Part shown: positions 2,187 through 9,635 of the stretch, in pieces
Layout of the letters: every line of letters starts with the position of its first letter
Position numbering within the stretch: position 1 is the stretch's first letter
Source: Erysipelotrichaceae bacterium
GTDB taxonomy: Bacteria > Bacillota_I > Bacilli_A > Erysipelotrichales > Erysipelotrichaceae
Assembly: GCA_029101345.1 (NCBI GenBank)
Contig: JAQXQU010000130.1
Coordinates: forward strand, 1-41,759
Direction: 5' to 3'
DNA length: 41,759 nt
The notes under the pieces: model-generated
What the model was told of the DNA's origin: nothing
The model's input: the letters and a program-made list of their open reading frames with translations, nothing else
Database searches by the model: none
Translations under genes and position numbers: made by a program

Positions 2187-2843
2187 TTAACTATTCTTTT
2201 TGACTATTTCAATAATTGTATCTACAACTTCTTCAATGCTCATCTTTGAGCTATCGATCTCGATAGCATCATCTGCCTTTTTCAGTGGTGAGATTGTCCG
2301 ATGAGTATCCTGATAATCCCTCTTGATAATATCTTCCAGAATGGCATCATAATCAGCCGGAAGACCCTTTTCAAGATTCTGCTTGACTCTTCTTTTTGCA
2401 CGGTCTTCAGCTGAAGCAGTCAAAAAGATCTTGACCTTGGCATCCTTTAGAACAACAGTTCCGATATCACGGCCATCAACAATATAGCCCCCATCAGCAG
2501 CGATTCTTCTTTGCATTTCAACCAAGGCTTCTCTGACTTTGCCTAATTTGGAGACATCACTGGCACCCATGGACATCTCATTGGTCCTGATTTCATTTGA
2601 AATATCTTCACCATCCAGAAAGACCTTTCCATCTGGATGAATAACAAGTTTCATATTTTCAATCATCTTGGCAATAGCTTCTTCAGCATCAAATGGCAAG
2701 CCGCTCTTAAAAGCGCCATAGGCAACAGCCCGATACATGGCTCCTGTATCAAGATGGGTATAGCCAAGCCTTAATGCCAAAATATCAGAGATTGTGCTCT
2801 TGCCAGCAGCACTAGGTCCATCAATGGCAATATTAGGCCTCAT
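2187..2843 (-). CDS. cmk: Cytidylate kinase
   Basis: Phosphorylates CMP and dCMP with ATP in pyrimidine nucleotide recycling. The Walker A segment GPSAAGKST is close to the N-terminus. The CMP-binding segment DGRDIGTVV is central, and an Arg-rich lid (AEDRAKRRVKQN) follows. At 218 residues it has normal length. The ATG overlaps the stop of the upstream acidic-protein gene by one base (TAATG), and an AAAGGA ribosome-binding site lies inside that gene's end. The family often sits upstream of der, sometimes with an rpsA-like gene; no rpsA homologue is present here. Confidence 0.97.
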   Translation of the reverse strand: MRPNIAIDGPSAAGKSTISDILALRLGYTHLDTGAMYRAVAYGAFKSGLPFDAEEAIAKMIENMKLVIHPDGKVFLDGEDISNEIRTNEMSMGASDVSKLGKVREALVEMQRRIAADGGYIVDGRDIGTVVLKDAKVKIFLTASAEDRAKRRVKQNLEKGLPADYDAILEDIIKRDYQDTHRTISPLKKADDAIEIDSSKMSIEEVVDTIIEIVKKNS

Positions 2844-4930
2844 TAGATAATTCCTTTCGCAGCCAGGATATAGTAGACAATCAGTCCTAAGACAGCCAGA
2901 AGTACAACAATCAGAATACCGAGAATGACATTCAGGACCTTGTTTGGAGTTTCATCATCAATGACCTTCTCCTCCTCAACAGCAACATTCTTGGTAACAA
3001 CAAATGGAATTGTATCTTCAATTGTCTTGGCAATCTTTTCTTCTTTTTCAATTTCTGAAAGATTTTTGATTTCAACAACATCTTCCTGAAGATCAGCTTC
3101 TTCAGCAGCAATAGCCATTGCTGGATGTTCATTCTTTTCTTCCTTGACAGGCTTGAAATAATCTGCCAGGAAGTCAGGCATCTTGACTTCTTCACTTGCT
3201 GATCCTACAGCATGAATCATATCCATGCCTGATTCATTGACATGATTGCCATTATCGATCTCTTCCATCAGCTTTGAGATTTCCAGGGAAACAGTATTAG
3301 AGAATTCCTCATCATCTTCATCTTCATCCTGATTGTCAAAATAATCATTGACAAACGATGGAACAACAACTGCATCCTCATTTCTGTTTTCTTCTGTCTT
3401 TTCCAAAGCAACCGGTTCTGCATCCTCAATGGCTTCCACTTCTTCGGCAATCTCTTCCTCAACTGCTGGTTCTTCATTTAAAGGAGCTTCATTGATTTCC
3501 TCAACTGCAGTTTCAGAAGACTCCTGAGTATTATCCATTGTTTCAGCAGGTTCTTCTTCTAAAGGAGCTTCATCAGATTCTGCAGCCATTTCAGGTTCCT
3601 CAAAAATCTCTGGTTCTATAAGAGCAGCTTCTTCAGCAACCCCTTCCTCAACTGCTGGTTCTGATGCAACAGTTTCATTTGTTTCCTCCACTGCTTCCTC
3701 AGATGCTTCAACGGTTTCTTCAATTAGAGGTTCTAAAACTTCTGTCTCTTCTGCAGTTTCGGTTGGTTCTTCAACTGATTCCTCAACCGGTTCCTCATTT
3801 TCCTGAACTGGAGTTTCTTCTGCACTTTCATCTGAAGAAGGTTCCTCATTTGCTGCTACAGCGATCTCTTCGGCTTCCTGTACTTCTTCAGTTTCCACAG
3901 CTTCACTAAGAGGTTCTTCAACCACTGTTTCTTCGAAAGGTCTTTCTTCTTCAATGGCTACATCTTCAGCTTCCAAAGCAGAATCTGCTTCATTTTCATC
4001 AGCTGCTTCTTCAGCTGTTTCAATAGCAGCTGTTTCTTCCTGATTTTCAAATGCTTCAGGATGTCTTACTTCATCAACAATTTCACTTGTCAGTTCAGTG
4101 AATGTTGCAAGACCGGCTTCCTTATTGGCTTCTTCCACTTCTGTGATAATGCTTTCAACAACCGAATTGAAATCATCGGCAGTTTCTTCATCTGCTACTG
4201 CTTCCTCTTCCTTCTGATTGCCTTCATTATCAAGAGCGGTTGCCATTTCTCTTGCCTCATGGAGAATATCTTCTACGATTGGTGTAATAGGTTCTTCATC
4301 AGCTGCTTCTTCACAAGCAGAAGATGCTTCTTCCTTTTCTTCAACAGCCGGCTCTTCCATAGCTTCCGCATTAAGCTTATCAGTTGACAGTTCAGCAATA
4401 ATGTCACTTAGGACATCATTGACCGCTGATTCTTCTTCTGTCTTTGGCATAACTGGAACCACTTCCTCTGCTGGTTCCTCTTTCTTTTCCTCTTCCTGAA
4501 CATCACCAAAAATCATCATGAAGTCTTCAAGAGAAGGAATCTTTTCTTCGGCCACTGTTTCTTTCTGGATAGTTTCCGCATTTTCAGCTGGCTCTTCAAC
4601 ATGCTCAATCACAACTGGTTCAACTGCTAGCTCATCAGCAGGGGCAGTTTCTGGTTCTATCCTATTAACATCAAGCATCTTGAAGATGTCGCTGAATTCA
4701 TCGTTCAGGTCAAGGACCTTGATAGTTTCTGTTTCATTTGAATTTGATGAAGCAGGATTTGCTTCTGCAACTGGCACTTCTTCATTTTCAACAATTGGTG
4801 TCAATGTCTTTTCAATAGCTTTGAAACGCTCATCATATGCAGAAAGCTGTTCCGATTTTACTGATACAGTTCCATTTGCAAGTGCTTCTCTACGCTCAGC
4901 ATATTTCTGAGTACGCGTTAATCTAGCCAT
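2843..4930 (-). CDS. Glu-rich disordered protein with C-terminal membrane anchor, unknown function
   Basis: I do not recognise this 695-residue protein. The N-terminus is basic and probably helical (MARLTRTQKYAERREAL). About 600 very acidic residues follow, rich in Glu, Ala, Val and Pro and probably disordered. One membrane helix (VLNVILGILIVVLLAVLGL) ends the chain with a short tail, so it should be tail-anchored with the acidic part in the cytosol. The acidic part is broken by short hydrophobic clusters: DEFSDIFKMLD, SLEDFMMIFGD, NDVLSDIIAELS, FNSVVESIITEV, and a duplicated motif PSFVNDYF / PDFLADYF. The ATG at 4930 is preferred over a TTG 15 bases upstream because that TTG overlaps the Shine-Dalgarno TTGGAGG. 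It is first in the cmk-der-gpsA operon. A scaffold or division-related role is possible but unproven. Confidence 0.85.
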   Translation of the reverse strand: MARLTRTQKYAERREALANGTVSVKSEQLSAYDERFKAIEKTLTPIVENEEVPVAEANPASSNSNETETIKVLDLNDEFSDIFKMLDVNRIEPETAPADELAVEPVVIEHVEEPAENAETIQKETVAEEKIPSLEDFMMIFGDVQEEEKKEEPAEEVVPVMPKTEEESAVNDVLSDIIAELSTDKLNAEAMEEPAVEEKEEASSACEEAADEEPITPIVEDILHEAREMATALDNEGNQKEEEAVADEETADDFNSVVESIITEVEEANKEAGLATFTELTSEIVDEVRHPEAFENQEETAAIETAEEAADENEADSALEAEDVAIEEERPFEETVVEEPLSEAVETEEVQEAEEIAVAANEEPSSDESAEETPVQENEEPVEESVEEPTETAEETEVLEPLIEETVEASEEAVEETNETVASEPAVEEGVAEEAALIEPEIFEEPEMAAESDEAPLEEEPAETMDNTQESSETAVEEINEAPLNEEPAVEEEIAEEVEAIEDAEPVALEKTEENRNEDAVVVPSFVNDYFDNQDEDEDDEEFSNTVSLEISKLMEEIDNGNHVNESGMDMIHAVGSASEEVKMPDFLADYFKPVKEEKNEHPAMAIAAEEADLQEDVVEIKNLSEIEKEEKIAKTIEDTIPFVVTKNVAVEEEKVIDDETPNKVLNVILGILIVVLLAVLGLIVYYILAAKGII

Positions 4931-4962
4931 ACTAAAAACCTCCAATAAATATAGGTAATTGT

Positions 4963-4991
4963 ATTATAGCAAAGTCTCTGAAAAAACCCAA
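4963..4991 (-). promoter_or_regulatory. Promoter of the acidic-protein/cmk/der/gpsA operon
   Basis: On the minus strand TTGGGT (4986-4991), a 17-base spacer and TATAAT (4963-4968) precede a leader of about 26 nt with a GGAGG ribosome-binding site. The -10 is perfect and the -35 is weak. It is divergent from the sirtuin promoter. Confidence 0.6.
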
Positions 4992-5009
4992 ATACAAGGG
5001 CTTTAAGAG

Positions 5010-5015
5010 TATAAT
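5010..5015 (+). promoter_or_regulatory. -10 box of the sirtuin gene, predicted leaderless transcript
   Basis: TATAAT ends 6 nt before the ATG at 5022, so the expected start of transcription coincides with the start codon. No Shine-Dalgarno exists upstream of this ATG. The -35 region (CCCAAA at a 17-base spacing) is poor and overlaps the -35 of the divergent operon. Confidence 0.55.
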
Positions 5016-5021
5016 ATCAAT

Positions 5022-5744
5022 ATGATAGCAAGACTTCAAAATGCCATTGATAAGGCCAAACGCATTGTTTTCTTTTCTGGTGCTGGCATGTCAACTGCTT
5101 CAGGCATCCCGGATTTCAGATCAAGTACTGGTCTCTATAAGCAGAACTACCGCGCTGAAGAAATTCTCTCCCATTCCTTTTTCATGGAAAATCCCAAAGA
5201 GTTTTATGAATTCTATCGGGAAAAGATGATCTATGAAGATGCCAAGCCAAACTATGCCCATCAATTCATCAGTGAACTGCAAAACCAAAAGGAGGTAATT
5301 GTTGTTACCCAGAATATTGATGGGCTTCATCAGAAAGCTGGAAGCAAGATTGTTCATGAACTGCATGGCTCCATCCATCGCAACTATTGCATGAAATGCC
5401 ATAAGTTTCATCCCTTGGCAAGCATCACAAACAGCAATGGCATCCCCCATTGTTCCTGTGGTGGCACTATCAAGCCTGATGTTGTCCTTTATGAAGAAGG
5501 TCTTGATGGAAATACGATCGATAATGCCATCAACGCCATCAGCACCTGTGATCTGCTTGTCATCTGTGGAACTTCCTTAAGCGTCTATCCCGCCGCTTCC
5601 TTTGTCCGCTATTTCCGAGGTGATAATCTAGCCATCATCAATAAGTCCTCGACCCCTTATGATGAATACTGCAATATTGTCATTAACGATGATCTGGTTG
5701 AGACCTTCAGCAAACTGGAAATCATTGATAGTTCAAGGAGATGA
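5022..5744 (+). CDS. Sir2-family NAD+-dependent protein deacylase
   Basis: A cytosolic sirtuin that removes acyl groups from lysine using NAD+. The 240 residues carry the full set of motifs: GAGMSTASGIPDFRS (20-34), TQNIDGLHQKAG (96-107), catalytic His115 in ELHGS, and a four-Cys zinc site at Cys123, Cys126, Cys144 and Cys146. The last pair is spaced CxC rather than the common CxxC. CGTSLSVYPAA near the C-terminus binds NAD+. The ATG has no ribosome-binding site and sits 6 nt after a TATAAT box. The next gene begins two bases after this stop, so the two form an operon. Residue motifs for desuccinylase activity were not assessed, so the acyl preference is unknown. Confidence 0.93.
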   Translation: MIARLQNAIDKAKRIVFFSGAGMSTASGIPDFRSSTGLYKQNYRAEEILSHSFFMENPKEFYEFYREKMIYEDAKPNYAHQFISELQNQKEVIVVTQNIDGLHQKAGSKIVHELHGSIHRNYCMKCHKFHPLASITNSNGIPHCSCGGTIKPDVVLYEEGLDGNTIDNAINAISTCDLLVICGTSLSVYPAASFVRYFRGDNLAIINKSSTPYDEYCNIVINDDLVETFSKLEIIDSSRR

Positions 5745-5745
5745 C

Positions 5746-6624
5746 ATGGACATTAGCCAATATTTCATCAAAGGTGATATCAAAGGTGCTATCACCTATA
5801 TGTCAAAGAATAATGAATTCAAAGATATCCTCCCCCACTATCAAGCCTTATTTGAAAGAGAAGAATATCTTATTTATCCAATAGCTTCCATTCTTAATGA
5901 AAGCCTTCTGCAATATCAGATCTACTTTCATGACATCTTCTATAAGGGCATCCCTGAAGAGGAAGCTTCCAGGAAACTGCTTTCCAGCCTCTATCAGCTG
6001 ATGGATGCTACAGACGAGGATAGTCTAGTAAACAAGCTAAAAGAAGCCTTCAAGAAAGAAGGCTACAAGAGCCAATTTGGCAAAACCCAAGGCTTTTATG
6101 GCCCTTATATTTGGAAGGAAACAGTACCAGCCATTTATCATGTTGACCTGATTGATTCAAGCGCTGATTATAAAGTCAATATCCTCAAAGGCTTCATCTT
6201 CAAGGGCTGGATGAATTATCTGACTTTTGGAAGATTTGGCACCAGAGGCTGGGCATCAGCCGATGGGACGATCAACTGCATTGAAGATGCCTATGACTTT
6301 GAAAGCGAAAAGTTCAAGGTTTCCCTACTTAAACATGAAGCCCAGCATGCAGTTGATATGAAGCTATTCCCTAAGATCACAGCAACCGAGCTTGAATACA
6401 GAGCCAAGCTTATAGAGCTCTATTTCACAAGCAATCCTCACTTGCTGAATGACTTCATAATGGCCGCCAAAACGGACAATCCCCATGATTCCCATGGTCT
6501 AGCCTCAGCTAAAATCAAAAGGGAGTTCGCTTCCATTGATACCAGCAGCATTTCTTCCATTCACAACAAAGCCCTTGCACTATTTGAAACAAGCACAAGG
6601 GAAATGAAAGAAAAATACCTATAG
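5746..6624 (+). CDS. Putative HExxH zinc metallopeptidase-like protein
   Basis: A 292-residue soluble protein that I do not recognise as a named family. There is no signal peptide or membrane segment. The chain contains HEAQH at residues 197-201, matching the HExxH zincin consensus, followed by Glu-rich TELEYRAKLIELY (214-226). Glu215, Glu217 or Glu224 could be a third zinc ligand, as in gluzincins. The start at 5746 is chosen because AAGGAGA (5736-5742) lies just upstream; longer versions would run into the sirtuin gene. It is co-transcribed with the sirtuin and is followed by a strong terminator. Peptidase activity is inferred from one motif only. Confidence 0.75.
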   Translation: MDISQYFIKGDIKGAITYMSKNNEFKDILPHYQALFEREEYLIYPIASILNESLLQYQIYFHDIFYKGIPEEEASRKLLSSLYQLMDATDEDSLVNKLKEAFKKEGYKSQFGKTQGFYGPYIWKETVPAIYHVDLIDSSADYKVNILKGFIFKGWMNYLTFGRFGTRGWASADGTINCIEDAYDFESEKFKVSLLKHEAQHAVDMKLFPKITATELEYRAKLIELYFTSNPHLLNDFIMAAKTDNPHDSHGLASAKIKREFASIDTSSISSIHNKALALFETSTREMKEKYL

Positions 6625-6635
6625 AAACAATCATC

Positions 6636-6667
6636 AGCCATAGCAGTTTCTGCTATGGCTTTTCTTT
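6636..6667 (+). terminator. Terminator of sirtuin-zincin operon
   Basis: A perfect 11-bp stem AGCCATAGCAG / CTGCTATGGCT with a TTT loop is followed by TTTCTTT. Confidence 0.9.
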
Positions 6668-6723
6668 AATTGCCATAAGTCCATAAGTTGACAAGCCAGC
6701 AGCAATGTAGATGAATATCGTTC

Positions 6724-6748
6724 AAAAGGCGTCATCAGACACCTTTTT
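6724..6748 (-). terminator. Terminator of hflX-eamA unit
   Basis: On the minus strand AAAAGGTGTC, loop TGAT and GACGCCTTTT form a stem with one G-T pair. It lies 25 bases after the transporter stop and faces the plus-strand terminator of the convergent operon. Confidence 0.7.
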
Positions 6749-6772
6749 GCCAGAGATTTCCTATCAAATGCC

Positions 6773-7615
6773 TTAAAGCTGAGCCAAAATGACAGCTACG
6801 AACATCACAAGACAGCCAAGAAGTTCCTTGGGACCAGTTACTTCATGTAAAACAAGAAAGCCAAATAATAATGAGAAGGCTGATTCCAATGACATGATAA
6901 TGGAGGCGACTGTTGGTTCAACATCCCTTTGGCCAATTGTCTGAAAAGTATAAGCCAAACCAGTTGACATGACACCAAGATAAAGAATGGAAACCATTGA
7001 ATTGCTTAGGGCTTCCAAGCTTATAGTATCAAAGAAAAAAGCCATGACCATTGACGTCAGACCAGCAACCAAAAACTGAAAGAAGGATAGAATGACCGGT
7101 TCTACCTTAGTGGAATAGATATCAATATAGATGATCTGGAATGAGAAAAGACCGGCACAAGCTATCAGAAAGAAGTCATTGAAATCAAAGTTCAGGTCTG
7201 ACAAACCACAGATGAGGTATAGTCCAAAGAAGGACATGATCAAGGCAATGATGACATTCCTGCTGATTCTCTTATGAAAGAAGAGAAAGTTGAAGATTGG
7301 TACCAGAATGATATATTGGGCTGTTATAAAGCCAGCATGACCTGAATTGGCTTTGATCAGGGCATATTGCTGGCAGTTGGTTGCCAAAAAGAGAAAGAAG
7401 CCGGTGACAAGACCACCTTTGATGGCTTCCTTGATATTATAATTTCTTTTGATAAAGAGAAATGGGCTTATAACCAGAGCACCTAAGAGAAATCTTGTGC
7501 CATTGATTGTGAAAGTACCCAAGTCCCCTGTTGCCTTGCGTTGGAAGACAAAGGCCAAACCCCAGATGATCGATGCCACAAATAGCACAATTTTTCCAAA
7601 TAGACTTTTCGACAT
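6773..7615 (-). CDS. EamA/DMT-superfamily transporter
   Basis: A 280-residue polytopic membrane protein of the drug/metabolite transporter superfamily, with about ten hydrophobic helices in two EamA repeats. Recognisable segments are the N-terminal IVLFVASIIWGLAFVFQRKA, GHAGFITAQYIILVPIF, and the second-repeat end ASIIMSLESAFSLLFGFLVL. The substrate cannot be predicted; members export amino acids, metabolites or drugs. The ATG at 7615 is preferred over a GTG six bases upstream because AGGAG lies 5 bases before the ATG and overlaps the GTG. That ribosome-binding site overlaps the hflX stop, which implies co-translation with hflX. Confidence 0.9.
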   Translation of the reverse strand: MSKSLFGKIVLFVASIIWGLAFVFQRKATGDLGTFTINGTRFLLGALVISPFLFIKRNYNIKEAIKGGLVTGFFLFLATNCQQYALIKANSGHAGFITAQYIILVPIFNFLFFHKRISRNVIIALIMSFFGLYLICGLSDLNFDFNDFFLIACAGLFSFQIIYIDIYSTKVEPVILSFFQFLVAGLTSMVMAFFFDTISLEALSNSMVSILYLGVMSTGLAYTFQTIGQRDVEPTVASIIMSLESAFSLLFGFLVLHEVTGPKELLGCLVMFVAVILAQL

Positions 7616-7623
7616 ATGCACTC

Positions 7624-8841
7624 CTAAAGATTATTGCAAAGCGACAGAAGATCTTTTTCAGCGCCTGCTACCTCATATAATGTACCCTCTTCAAGATGTT
7701 CAATCAAGGAAAAATCAAGAAAACTCGCATAACGATCCAGGAGATAAAGTTTCTGATAAGGTATCAGGACCTGCTTTTGGCAGTCTCTTGGATATAGCAG
7801 GGAAACAGTTTCCTGCAATAGCATATCAATGCCAATATTCTCAAGACAGGATATCAGAAGACCTTCAGGCTTATTATCTTTCATCAGATCGCATTTGTTA
7901 TAGACTTCAAGAATTGGAATTTCATCAGCACCAATTCGCTTTAAAGTCGAAAGGGTTATTTCCCTTTGGTTTTCATAGTTGGAATTGGAACAGTCCAGCA
8001 CATGAAGCAGCAGATCAGCTTCCTTTACAGCTTCCAAGGTTGATGAAAAGGCCTCAATCAATTCATGTGGCAGATCTGAAACAAAGCCAACAGTATCAAA
8101 TAACAGGAAATCATAGTTCTTATAGCTGATATTGCGAACAGCAGTATCCAAAGTAGCAAATAGCTGATCTTTGGCATAAACGCTTTTTTCAGTGCGGTCA
8201 TTTTCCAATAATAGGCGATTCATCAGTGATGACTTGCCGGCATTGGTATAGCCAACAAGTGCTACCTTCTTCTTGTTTGAGCGATTGCGCTTACGCCCTT
8301 GTTCTTCCCGACGGTCCTTAAGACTATCAAGTTCCTTTTTCAATTCACCAATGCGTCTTTCCATTTGCCTTGAAATGATTTCCACTCGGTTTTCACCGGC
8401 ACCTCTGTTATTGACACCACCACGCATCCGGTCACTGTCACCATCATCCCTTAGCATCTTGGGCAGATTATATTTTAATCTGGCCATTTCCGTTTGAATC
8501 AGGGCTTCTTTGGAATGGGCTCTTTGAGAAAAGATATCAAGAATCAAAGCTGTACGATCTATGACCCTAATATCCAGATAGTCTTCAAGATGATAGATGG
8601 TTGATGCACTAAGGCTGTTCATGAAGACTATCTCATCCGCTTTGGTCTCTGTTATGGCCACCTTGAGTTCTTCAAGCTTGCCTTTGCGAAAGCCGGTATT
8701 GGGGTCTAAGGAATTGGCAGTCTGGGAAATGGTCAAAACCACTTCAAGGCCTAAGGCTTGGCAGAGATTTCGGCATTCCTCCATCTTTTCATCAAAGTCA
8801 GCCGTTTTCTTTAGATTGATGCCTGCTAGTATTGCTTTCAT
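7624..8841 (-). CDS. hflX: Ribosome-associated GTPase HflX
   Basis: A 405-residue GTPase of the Obg-HflX group that binds 50S subunits and splits stalled ribosomes under stress. The N-terminal HflX domain contains the Gly-rich linker DRMRGGVNNRGAGENRVE (~138-155) and then a coiled coil. The G domain has the P-loop GYTNAGKSS (~197-205), a DTVGF switch II and NKCD. A TAAGGAG ribosome-binding site precedes the ATG. It is first in a two-gene unit with the EamA transporter. Confidence 0.96.
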   Translation of the reverse strand: MKAILAGINLKKTADFDEKMEECRNLCQALGLEVVLTISQTANSLDPNTGFRKGKLEELKVAITETKADEIVFMNSLSASTIYHLEDYLDIRVIDRTALILDIFSQRAHSKEALIQTEMARLKYNLPKMLRDDGDSDRMRGGVNNRGAGENRVEIISRQMERRIGELKKELDSLKDRREEQGRKRNRSNKKKVALVGYTNAGKSSLMNRLLLENDRTEKSVYAKDQLFATLDTAVRNISYKNYDFLLFDTVGFVSDLPHELIEAFSSTLEAVKEADLLLHVLDCSNSNYENQREITLSTLKRIGADEIPILEVYNKCDLMKDNKPEGLLISCLENIGIDMLLQETVSLLYPRDCQKQVLIPYQKLYLLDRYASFLDFSLIEHLEEGTLYEVAGAEKDLLSLCNNL

Positions 8842-8885: not shown

Positions 8886-8912
8886 AAAACAAAAGCTCCT
8901 TTTTTAGGAGCT
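8886..8912 (-). terminator. Terminator overlapping the ywaF stop codon
   Basis: On the minus strand AGCTCCT, a five-A loop and AGGAGCT are followed by TTTTGTTTT. The ywaF stop TAA (8904-8906) begins at the end of the 5' arm. Confidence 0.8.
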
Positions 8913-9635
8913 ATGTCGGATTCTGCTCTTGATGATGATCGGCCCATACATGATCATTACCAGCAAGGCAATATAGACCGGGAAACCAGCTAGATGCGTG
9001 CCGGCAATATCATAGAACGGATAAAGCGGATTGCCTGGATCAACATACATCAGAAACATGAAGTTGGTATCAAGCAACAGGTTAATGCCAAGGGCAATGA
9101 CAGCCAGAACTGCCAAAATAGCAAAGCTCTTTGGCAATTGGCGAATATCCGGCTTGATGTCACCACGAACTAGCAACATGATAGGATACAGCATCAAAAG
9201 GATATGAATGCTGAAGGAATGCAGGTGCATGAAATTGAAAAGCGGAAGCTTCGTCCATGTTGGAAACAGCATTGCCATCATTGCGCCCGGAATGCCTACA
9301 GTATAAAGAAAGTTATCAACGGCCTTTGATGGACGATATGAATGATAGAGAATCAGAAAGATATTGACTGAGCATAAATGGAATGGCAGGTAGCAGAATT
9401 TATAACGGCCACCCACTGTGAGCCAGAACATCTTCCAGATTTCATCAAAGACAATGATGTAGGCAATGATCTTTCGGAAGCTCTTTGCCTTTTGTTCGTC
9501 AAGTCTTCGATAATAAAGCGAAACAAACGTGATGACCAGTATCCCCAAAGCCAGCCATGCCAGATGAAGTGGACCAAATAAATTGAAACCCAAGCCTTCC
9601 GGAATAGTTTCGACAGTATCGATAAAGTTATTCAT
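8904..9635 (-). CDS. ywaF: YwaF / TIGR02206-type membrane protein
   Basis: A 243-residue integral membrane protein with about seven hydrophobic helices. It resembles the YwaF (TIGR02206) family of uncharacterised Bacillota membrane proteins. Typical features are a helix near FNLFGPLHLAWLALGILVIT, conserved LPFHLCSVNIFL and LHSFSIHILLMLYPIM in the core, and GIPGAMMAMLFP. Its biochemical role is unknown. The ATG has no Shine-Dalgarno but lies exactly 6 nt after a TATTAT box with a good -35, so the mRNA is predicted to be leaderless. It follows the DUF1667 gene without an intervening terminator. Confidence 0.85.
   Translation of the reverse strand: MNNFIDTVETIPEGLGFNLFGPLHLAWLALGILVITFVSLYYRRLDEQKAKSFRKIIAYIIVFDEIWKMFWLTVGGRYKFCYLPFHLCSVNIFLILYHSYRPSKAVDNFLYTVGIPGAMMAMLFPTWTKLPLFNFMHLHSFSIHILLMLYPIMLLVRGDIKPDIRQLPKSFAILAVLAVIALGINLLLDTNFMFLMYVDPGNPLYPFYDIAGTHLAGFPVYIALLVMIMYGPIIIKSRIRHSS

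Follow-up and report, generated by a model that had tools for sequence, protein, structure and literature searches.

A probably gluzincin-like metalloenzyme of an unnamed, patchily distributed family lies behind a core sirtuin gene in an Erysipelotrichaceae genome

The stretch of DNA analysed here, referred to as the window (41,759 nt), belongs to Erysipelotrichaceae bacterium (GCA_029101345.1, contig JAQXQU010000130.1) and carries two adjacent plus-strand ORFs: a sirtuin gene (5022..5744, 240 aa, with PF02146 and NF001752 matches) and a HExxH gene (5746..6624, 292 aa), which encodes a probable single-domain gluzincin-like metalloenzyme of an unnamed family. The sirtuin TGA (5742-5744) and the next ATG (5746) are separated by one base, exactly as the original prediction had it, and a Shine-Dalgarno-like AAGGAGA for the HExxH gene was recognized by eye inside the last sirtuin codons (5735..5741, plus strand). 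The single shared promoter that had been proposed came out weaker than claimed: a TATAAT -10-like box was seen by eye six bases before the sirtuin ATG (5010..5015, plus strand), but with no clear -35, and it was absent from the list of the promoter scan. On the plus strand, that scan placed a promoter-like site just upstream of the HExxH gene, within the end of the sirtuin gene (5698-5725), in a set of sites whose overall number was at chance level (10 found vs. 8.4 expected, sd 2.8). The spacing between TATAAT and the sirtuin ATG (5010-5022), together with the missing Shine-Dalgarno (by eye), suggests that the sirtuin message may be leaderless. In 28/29 relatives from the genus, no more than 30 bases separate a loose -10-like pattern from the sirtuin start, a count that carries no chance control.

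Downstream of the HExxH gene, the scan listed a terminator-like hairpin of 11 pairs (6636..6660), in a region (4000-8000) where nine such sites were found against 3.5 in shuffles (sd 2.4). The hairpin agrees with the common strong terminator that had been predicted, but it was listed on both strands and may therefore end the convergent EamA gene (6773-7621, minus strand) as well. Production of the two genes together had been stated as a fact; the layout, from which it is deduced, fits, and co-transcription is likely. The G+C content of the HExxH gene was ordinary (0.408 vs. 0.421 for the window), which does not point to a recent foreign source; around the gene there were only weak repeats and no clear flanking ones. 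Two further minus-strand genes were recorded in the window. One (2843-4945) encodes an acidic protein of 700 aa with a C-terminal stretch that looks hydrophobic by eye; it has no Pfam match, and pieces of it matched upstream of the sirtuin in 23/29 genus loci when the low-complexity filter was off. The product of the other (8904-9635) strongly matches the TMEM164 family (PF14808, E = 5.2e-42), a name known from eukaryotes.

The sirtuin matched PF02146 (E = 7.3e-51; 173.1 bits vs. a cut-off of 24) and NF001752 (324.2 bits vs. a cut-off of 221), and its best match among PDB sequences was 1yc5 (E = 3.5e-46), which we take to be Sir2Tm. Sirtuins share a motif set consisting of GAGxS, TQNID, the active-site His and four zinc Cys, and all of these were present in the alignment with 1yc5 (gagmstasgipdfr, tqnidglhqkag, elhgs, yCmkC and hCsC). 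Judged from its sequence, the window gene is complete and its predicted product is an ordinary NAD-dependent protein deacylase, Sir2Tm-like. Compared with bacterial sirtuins (PF02146, NF001752 and 1yc5-like), it has the same NAD and zinc motifs and the same active-site His, and nothing about it is unusual except its downstream neighbour.

That neighbour had been described as belonging to no nameable family, and the searches bore this out: at a threshold of E 10, Pfam, NCBIfam, PADLOC, PHROGs and the PDB sequences all lacked a match to the window HExxH protein. A PDB profile search with the family returned unrelated rows only (best E = 0.0027, a RecA fusion, outside the HExxH part). The seven aligned members gave weak and mutually different Pfam rows (best E = 0.026) and no match in NCBIfam or PADLOC. 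In the open-licence literature, the string HEAQH occurred only in an air-quality context.

The predicted position of HEAQH, residues 197-201, was confirmed in the 292-aa translation (codons at 6334..6348, plus strand). This putative metal-binding and catalytic motif was invariant in the six full-length members and in a truncated phage copy (L016), which keeps the other invariant residues too. The full-length members (n = 6) are 292-324 aa long, with ATG starts chosen by the analyst; identity to the window protein was 29-31% for four of them and 61% for one. Their alignment (A3) had 46 invariant positions, among them H197, E198, A199, Q200, H201, D204, L216-L222 (LEYRAKL), E224 and H250, as well as YGPYIW (Y118-W123). 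Glu217, within LEYRAKL (codon 6394..6396, plus strand), is a putative third metal ligand, separated from His201 by 15 residues and placed, in the model, on the helix that follows the HExxH helix; His250 (codon 6493..6495, plus strand) is a candidate catalytic or second-shell residue.

Because HExxH turns up 2,040 times when the window protein is shuffled 100,000 times, the motif by itself is modest evidence, whereas its invariance in all six full-length members is strong evidence. The frequency of the motif in shuffles, the lack of a curated family match and the negative Foldseek result described below would all suit an incidental HExxH in a protein that is not a metal enzyme; that explanation is nonetheless highly improbable, as it sits badly with the invariance of both His, the Glu, D204, E217 and H250 at about 30% identity and with the zincins that lead the structural comparison. 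The second gene represents a real family, small, patchy, unnamed and probably catalytic.

One copy of the HExxH gene was present in its own genome. The family-level search gave matches in 4/272 genomes, namely the window genome, two others at 61% (G182) and 57% (G239) identity, and G083. The match in G083 (L004) was rejected as false (E = 8.5e-4, 29% over query residues 47-141, HExxH not covered), the long ORF at that locus being presumably a sugar-kinase-like protein. In G239 the contig ends before the HExxH (L003), and this locus was excluded from the motif counts. A search of genome contigs returned two loci (L005 and L006; 32-33% identity), both from Bacillota. At the level of the order 3/294 genomes matched, all of them found before; the phylum gave 2/392, adding G362, and the order to which G650, the source of L005, belongs gave 3/90, adding G684. 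G362 lies in the class of the window genome and apparently also in the order of G650, which would agree with the window genome being from Bacillota. A match in G696 at identical contig number and coordinates was counted as the same genome as G362. Further sets (1/3, 1/49 and 1/398, the last being the phylum of G651) each returned a relative already found. The genome sets overlap and their counts were not summed; L007, L009-L012, L014 and L015 are repeats of loci already counted.

Plasmid and phage records searched by tblastn with the window HExxH protein yielded no relatives, and viral contigs yielded one, on a contig (L016) whose terminase, portal and head-protease genes mark it as that of a tailed phage. 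There the family member (L016:3-737) lies directly upstream of the terminase large-subunit gene. Between the terminase and portal genes of the same contig, a second protein with its own HExxH (L016:2642-3436, LTHEISHLCLH) was observed, with no Pfam or PHROGs match and no similarity to the window protein (best E = 0.32). The patchy distribution and the copy in a tailed-phage contig indicate that the HExxH gene is probably mobile between genomes.

The original prediction joined the two genes in a functional pair, with a joint pathway such as processing of acylated proteins or stress response; one form of it would be deacylation and then proteolysis of the same substrates. Such a pathway would agree with the one-base gap, the ribosome-binding site in the sirtuin end and the common terminator, and one lineage may own a functional operon that others lack, one genome of the species having been searched. 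However, 35/36 genus genomes gave a sirtuin match, which in G115 and G128 was a partial gene at a contig end, whereas outside the window genome no genus member (0/35) gave a match to the HExxH gene; 34 of these 35 have a sirtuin match. From 36 regions with a close sirtuin, 29 genus loci other than that of the window were returned, and tblastn of the window proteins on them detected the sirtuin, with the HExxH protein absent. Other genes follow the sirtuin in all the loci with readable downstream sequence (28 of the 29; L041 has 89 bases there); we take these to be flavoprotein-like and convergent (n = 15), glycerol-kinase-like and convergent (n = 6), nucleotidyltransferase-like and co-directional (n = 4), or other (n = 3). 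The slot just downstream of the genus sirtuins (L018-L046) is thus variable, with at least five gene kinds as judged from sequence starts.

In the opposite direction, no sirtuin was detected in the seven other neighbourhoods of HExxH genes (tblastn, E 1e-3; 3.6 to 19.9 kb each, with upstream DNA only for L048, downstream only for L016 and less than 0.8 kb downstream for L047), while the queries recovered the window's own genes as a positive control. Within the data searched, the adjacency of the sirtuin and HExxH genes was seen only in this genome, an outcome named in advance as refuting the pair. On the genus and neighbourhood surveys, a joint sirtuin-peptidase pathway is rejected as a conserved feature, and as an explanation of the pair it is very unlikely. 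No relative examined adjoins a sirtuin, which makes the two genes look like neighbours by chance and not like parts of one pathway. A search of the open-licence literature on a sirtuin and a metalloprotease in one operon or gene neighbourhood led only to work on polymorphic toxins.

No partner recurred among the HExxH loci that were read. The neighbours were Maf, BlaI-type regulator and SPFH genes at L002, an MFS transporter at L003, an ADP-ribosylglycohydrolase at L005 (with a terminator-like hairpin between the genes, by eye), and a CitMHS permease and a repeat protein at L013. At L006 (4117-4965 and 4962-5924) the start of the HExxH relative overlaps the end of Nmad3, a nucleotide-modification gene, by four bases, and an APH-type kinase comes next. 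The member at L008/L049 was accompanied by a protein with a below-cut-off HTH match, by ABC-transporter genes and by a phage-integrase-family tyrosine recombinase about 2.7 kb away.

Some of these surroundings raise the possibility that phages or islands carry the family as a mobile accessory gene with a part in phage-host conflict, like the zincin ArdC, which acts in anti-restriction. The position of the phage copy immediately before the terminase, portal and head-protease genes, the overlap with Nmad3, the nearby recombinase and the patchy distribution are all compatible with that role, and ArdC, named as antirestriction in a PDB title, appeared among the rows of the VIA structural comparison for both models, although at a low Z (4.0-4.2). 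It is an unlikely role all the same: PADLOC matched none of the members (0/7), no neighbour is shared among the loci read, the window copy is surrounded by Der/EngA-, cytidylate kinase- and HflX-like genes, and the L002 copy lies beside the Maf, BlaI-type and SPFH genes.

Structure models were obtained for the window protein (built from four sequences; pLDDT 81.9, pTM 0.74) and, with similar scores, for the L005 protein (pLDDT 82.9, pTM 0.76). The window model begins with a helical N-terminal part and continues with a small sheet, a HEAQH-bearing helix (188-207) and an E217-bearing helix (213-227). In both models the small sheet is followed by a helix that bears the HExxH and then by one that bears the conserved Glu, an arrangement expected of a zincin of the gluzincin kind. 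Foldseek against the PDB gave no significant match (best E = 0.49 for the window model and 0.57 for the L005 model), and against viral structures the window model gave nothing better than E = 0.33. In the VIA comparison, the top seven rows for the window model were all DPP III, including 5yfd (Z 10.2, rmsd 3.9, 178 aligned) and 6eom (Z 8.7, rmsd 4.8, 246 aligned), and so were the top three for the L005 model (Z 8.4-8.5; 5yfd with Z 8.5, rmsd 6.0, 249 aligned), on a scale where best Z values of 7-8 are common without a clear match, run higher for mostly helical models and can reflect a common arrangement. M1 aminopeptidases came next (Z about 6-7; 6-6.6 for the window model), level with unrelated eIF2/eIF2B entries in the window model (Z 6.0-6.6), and unrelated Cmr-subunit entries came within about 1 of DPP III in the L005 model (Z 7.3-7.5). 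Rows for anthrax lethal factor and Certhrax were found for the window model at Z 3.8-4.5.

Since Foldseek was negative, unrelated VIA rows were close and Z values of 7-8 are common, the likeness to DPP III is only suggestive and is treated as a lead; what the models support is a zincin-type, gluzincin-like core. For the expected zincin fold the outcome was mixed, with zincins leading the VIA rows for two models and Foldseek lacking a significant match, whereas the description of the protein as metalloenzyme-like and outside the named families is upheld by the conservation and by both models. A single-domain gluzincin-like metalloenzyme is the best reading of the modelled protein, and a probable one.

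Taken as a whole, we propose, with a probability of roughly 0.6, that the HExxH gene belongs to a mobile family of cytosolic, gluzincin-like hydrolases and is a chance neighbour of a core sirtuin gene. Its product would be one of a small group of single-domain metalloenzymes that has no family name, probably cytosolic, as no hydrophobic N terminus was seen by eye, with a fold closest to the catalytic portion of gluzincins, where DPP III (M49) ranks ahead of the M1 aminopeptidases. The metal, most likely zinc, would be bound by His197, His201 and Glu217; Glu198 would activate water as general base and His250 may aid catalysis, so that the likely reaction would be the hydrolytic cleavage of a peptide bond or another amide bond like it. 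The most economical mechanism would be that of a zinc hydrolase in which E198 is the general base, and hydrolysis is on balance favoured. The patchiness and the phage-contig copy suggest a gene that moves between genomes and that, in this lineage, would have landed in the variable slot behind the core sirtuin gene, where its protein is probably translated from the sirtuin message; no conserved functional link between the two proteins would be implied. The bolder idea of an undescribed mobile family in Bacillota and at least one phage, with a minimal single-domain DPP III-like fold and either exopeptidase activity or non-proteolytic iron chemistry, is doubtful. The lead offered by the locus is the enzyme family and not the sirtuin pair, since the sirtuin link, as tested, stops at this genome.

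Among known enzymes, M1 aminopeptidases, which are gluzincins, combine HExxH with a Glu on the following helix. The HExxH family has the same layout (Z about 6-7 in the comparison above), but no Pfam match. Two papers give the DPP III motifs as HExxGH, or the pentapeptides HEISH/HELMH in short bacterial forms, followed by a second motif, EExRAE/D, EECKAD or EEAKAD (PMC5805324, PMC9820243). The second Glu of that motif binds zinc (PMC5805324); it is numbered 442 and 412 in different sections of this source, from which the exact spacing was not taken. The short DPP III of C. abyssi has 558 aa and two domains (PMC5805324). Like bacterial members of DPP III (M49, PF03571), the HEAQH family has a pentapeptide HExxH, and its LEYRAK keeps the E-x-[RK]-A core, but without the flanking acidic residues of EExRAE/D; it is also far from DPP III in size (292-324 aa vs. 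at least 558 aa and two domains) and in sequence (8-17% identity in the structural rows). No PF03571 row appeared at E 10 for the window protein or the seven members, in searches where few matches above about 0.1 pass the HMMER filters. Neither the window's own genome nor the 398 genomes of the phylum of G651 yielded an M49 gene, with a control search that matched 1/14 named genomes.

A conserved His-His-Glu site of this kind may also serve oxidation. PolE is a structural homologue of DPP III with a HExxHxnE motif, yet it is an iron- and pterin-dependent oxidase, which uses Fe2+, O2 and tetrahydrobiopterin to desaturate isoleucine; mutants in the motif that were soluble had no activity (PMC12614342). 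Since PolE, although DPP III-like, is an oxidase, peptidase activity is not implied by the HExxH site. A preprint describes alpha-ketoglutarate HExxH enzymes, one of them belonging to a kind formerly annotated as metallopeptidase (PMC12636437). The HExxH protein could by analogy be an Fe(II)-dependent oxidase or oxygenase like either of these, and for the L005 model SnPolE was indeed among the VIA rows (Z 7.0, rmsd 5.8, 238 aligned of a 370-residue chain); for the window model, however, it was absent from the best 50 rows. This assignment is improbable, given also that no curated oxygenase family was matched and that no natural-product gene cluster was seen in the neighbourhoods, which are partly annotated.

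The differences from PolE and DUF6421 point the same way. DUF6421 is characterized by HE/DxxHx(21-23)E and lacks conservation of the catalytic His of DPP III (PMC12614342), whereas the HExxH family shares the His-His-Glu site, with Z 7.0 for one of two models, but has 15 residues between H201 and E217, which the DUF6421/PolE motif does not accommodate, keeps an invariant later His (H250) and has no Pfam match. If real, the family would add to the DPP III-like fold a small, free-standing relative with the core ligands and without the second domain; as both zinc peptidases and an iron oxidase (PolE) have been described on this fold, it would help to study how a single scaffold is committed to hydrolysis or to oxidation.
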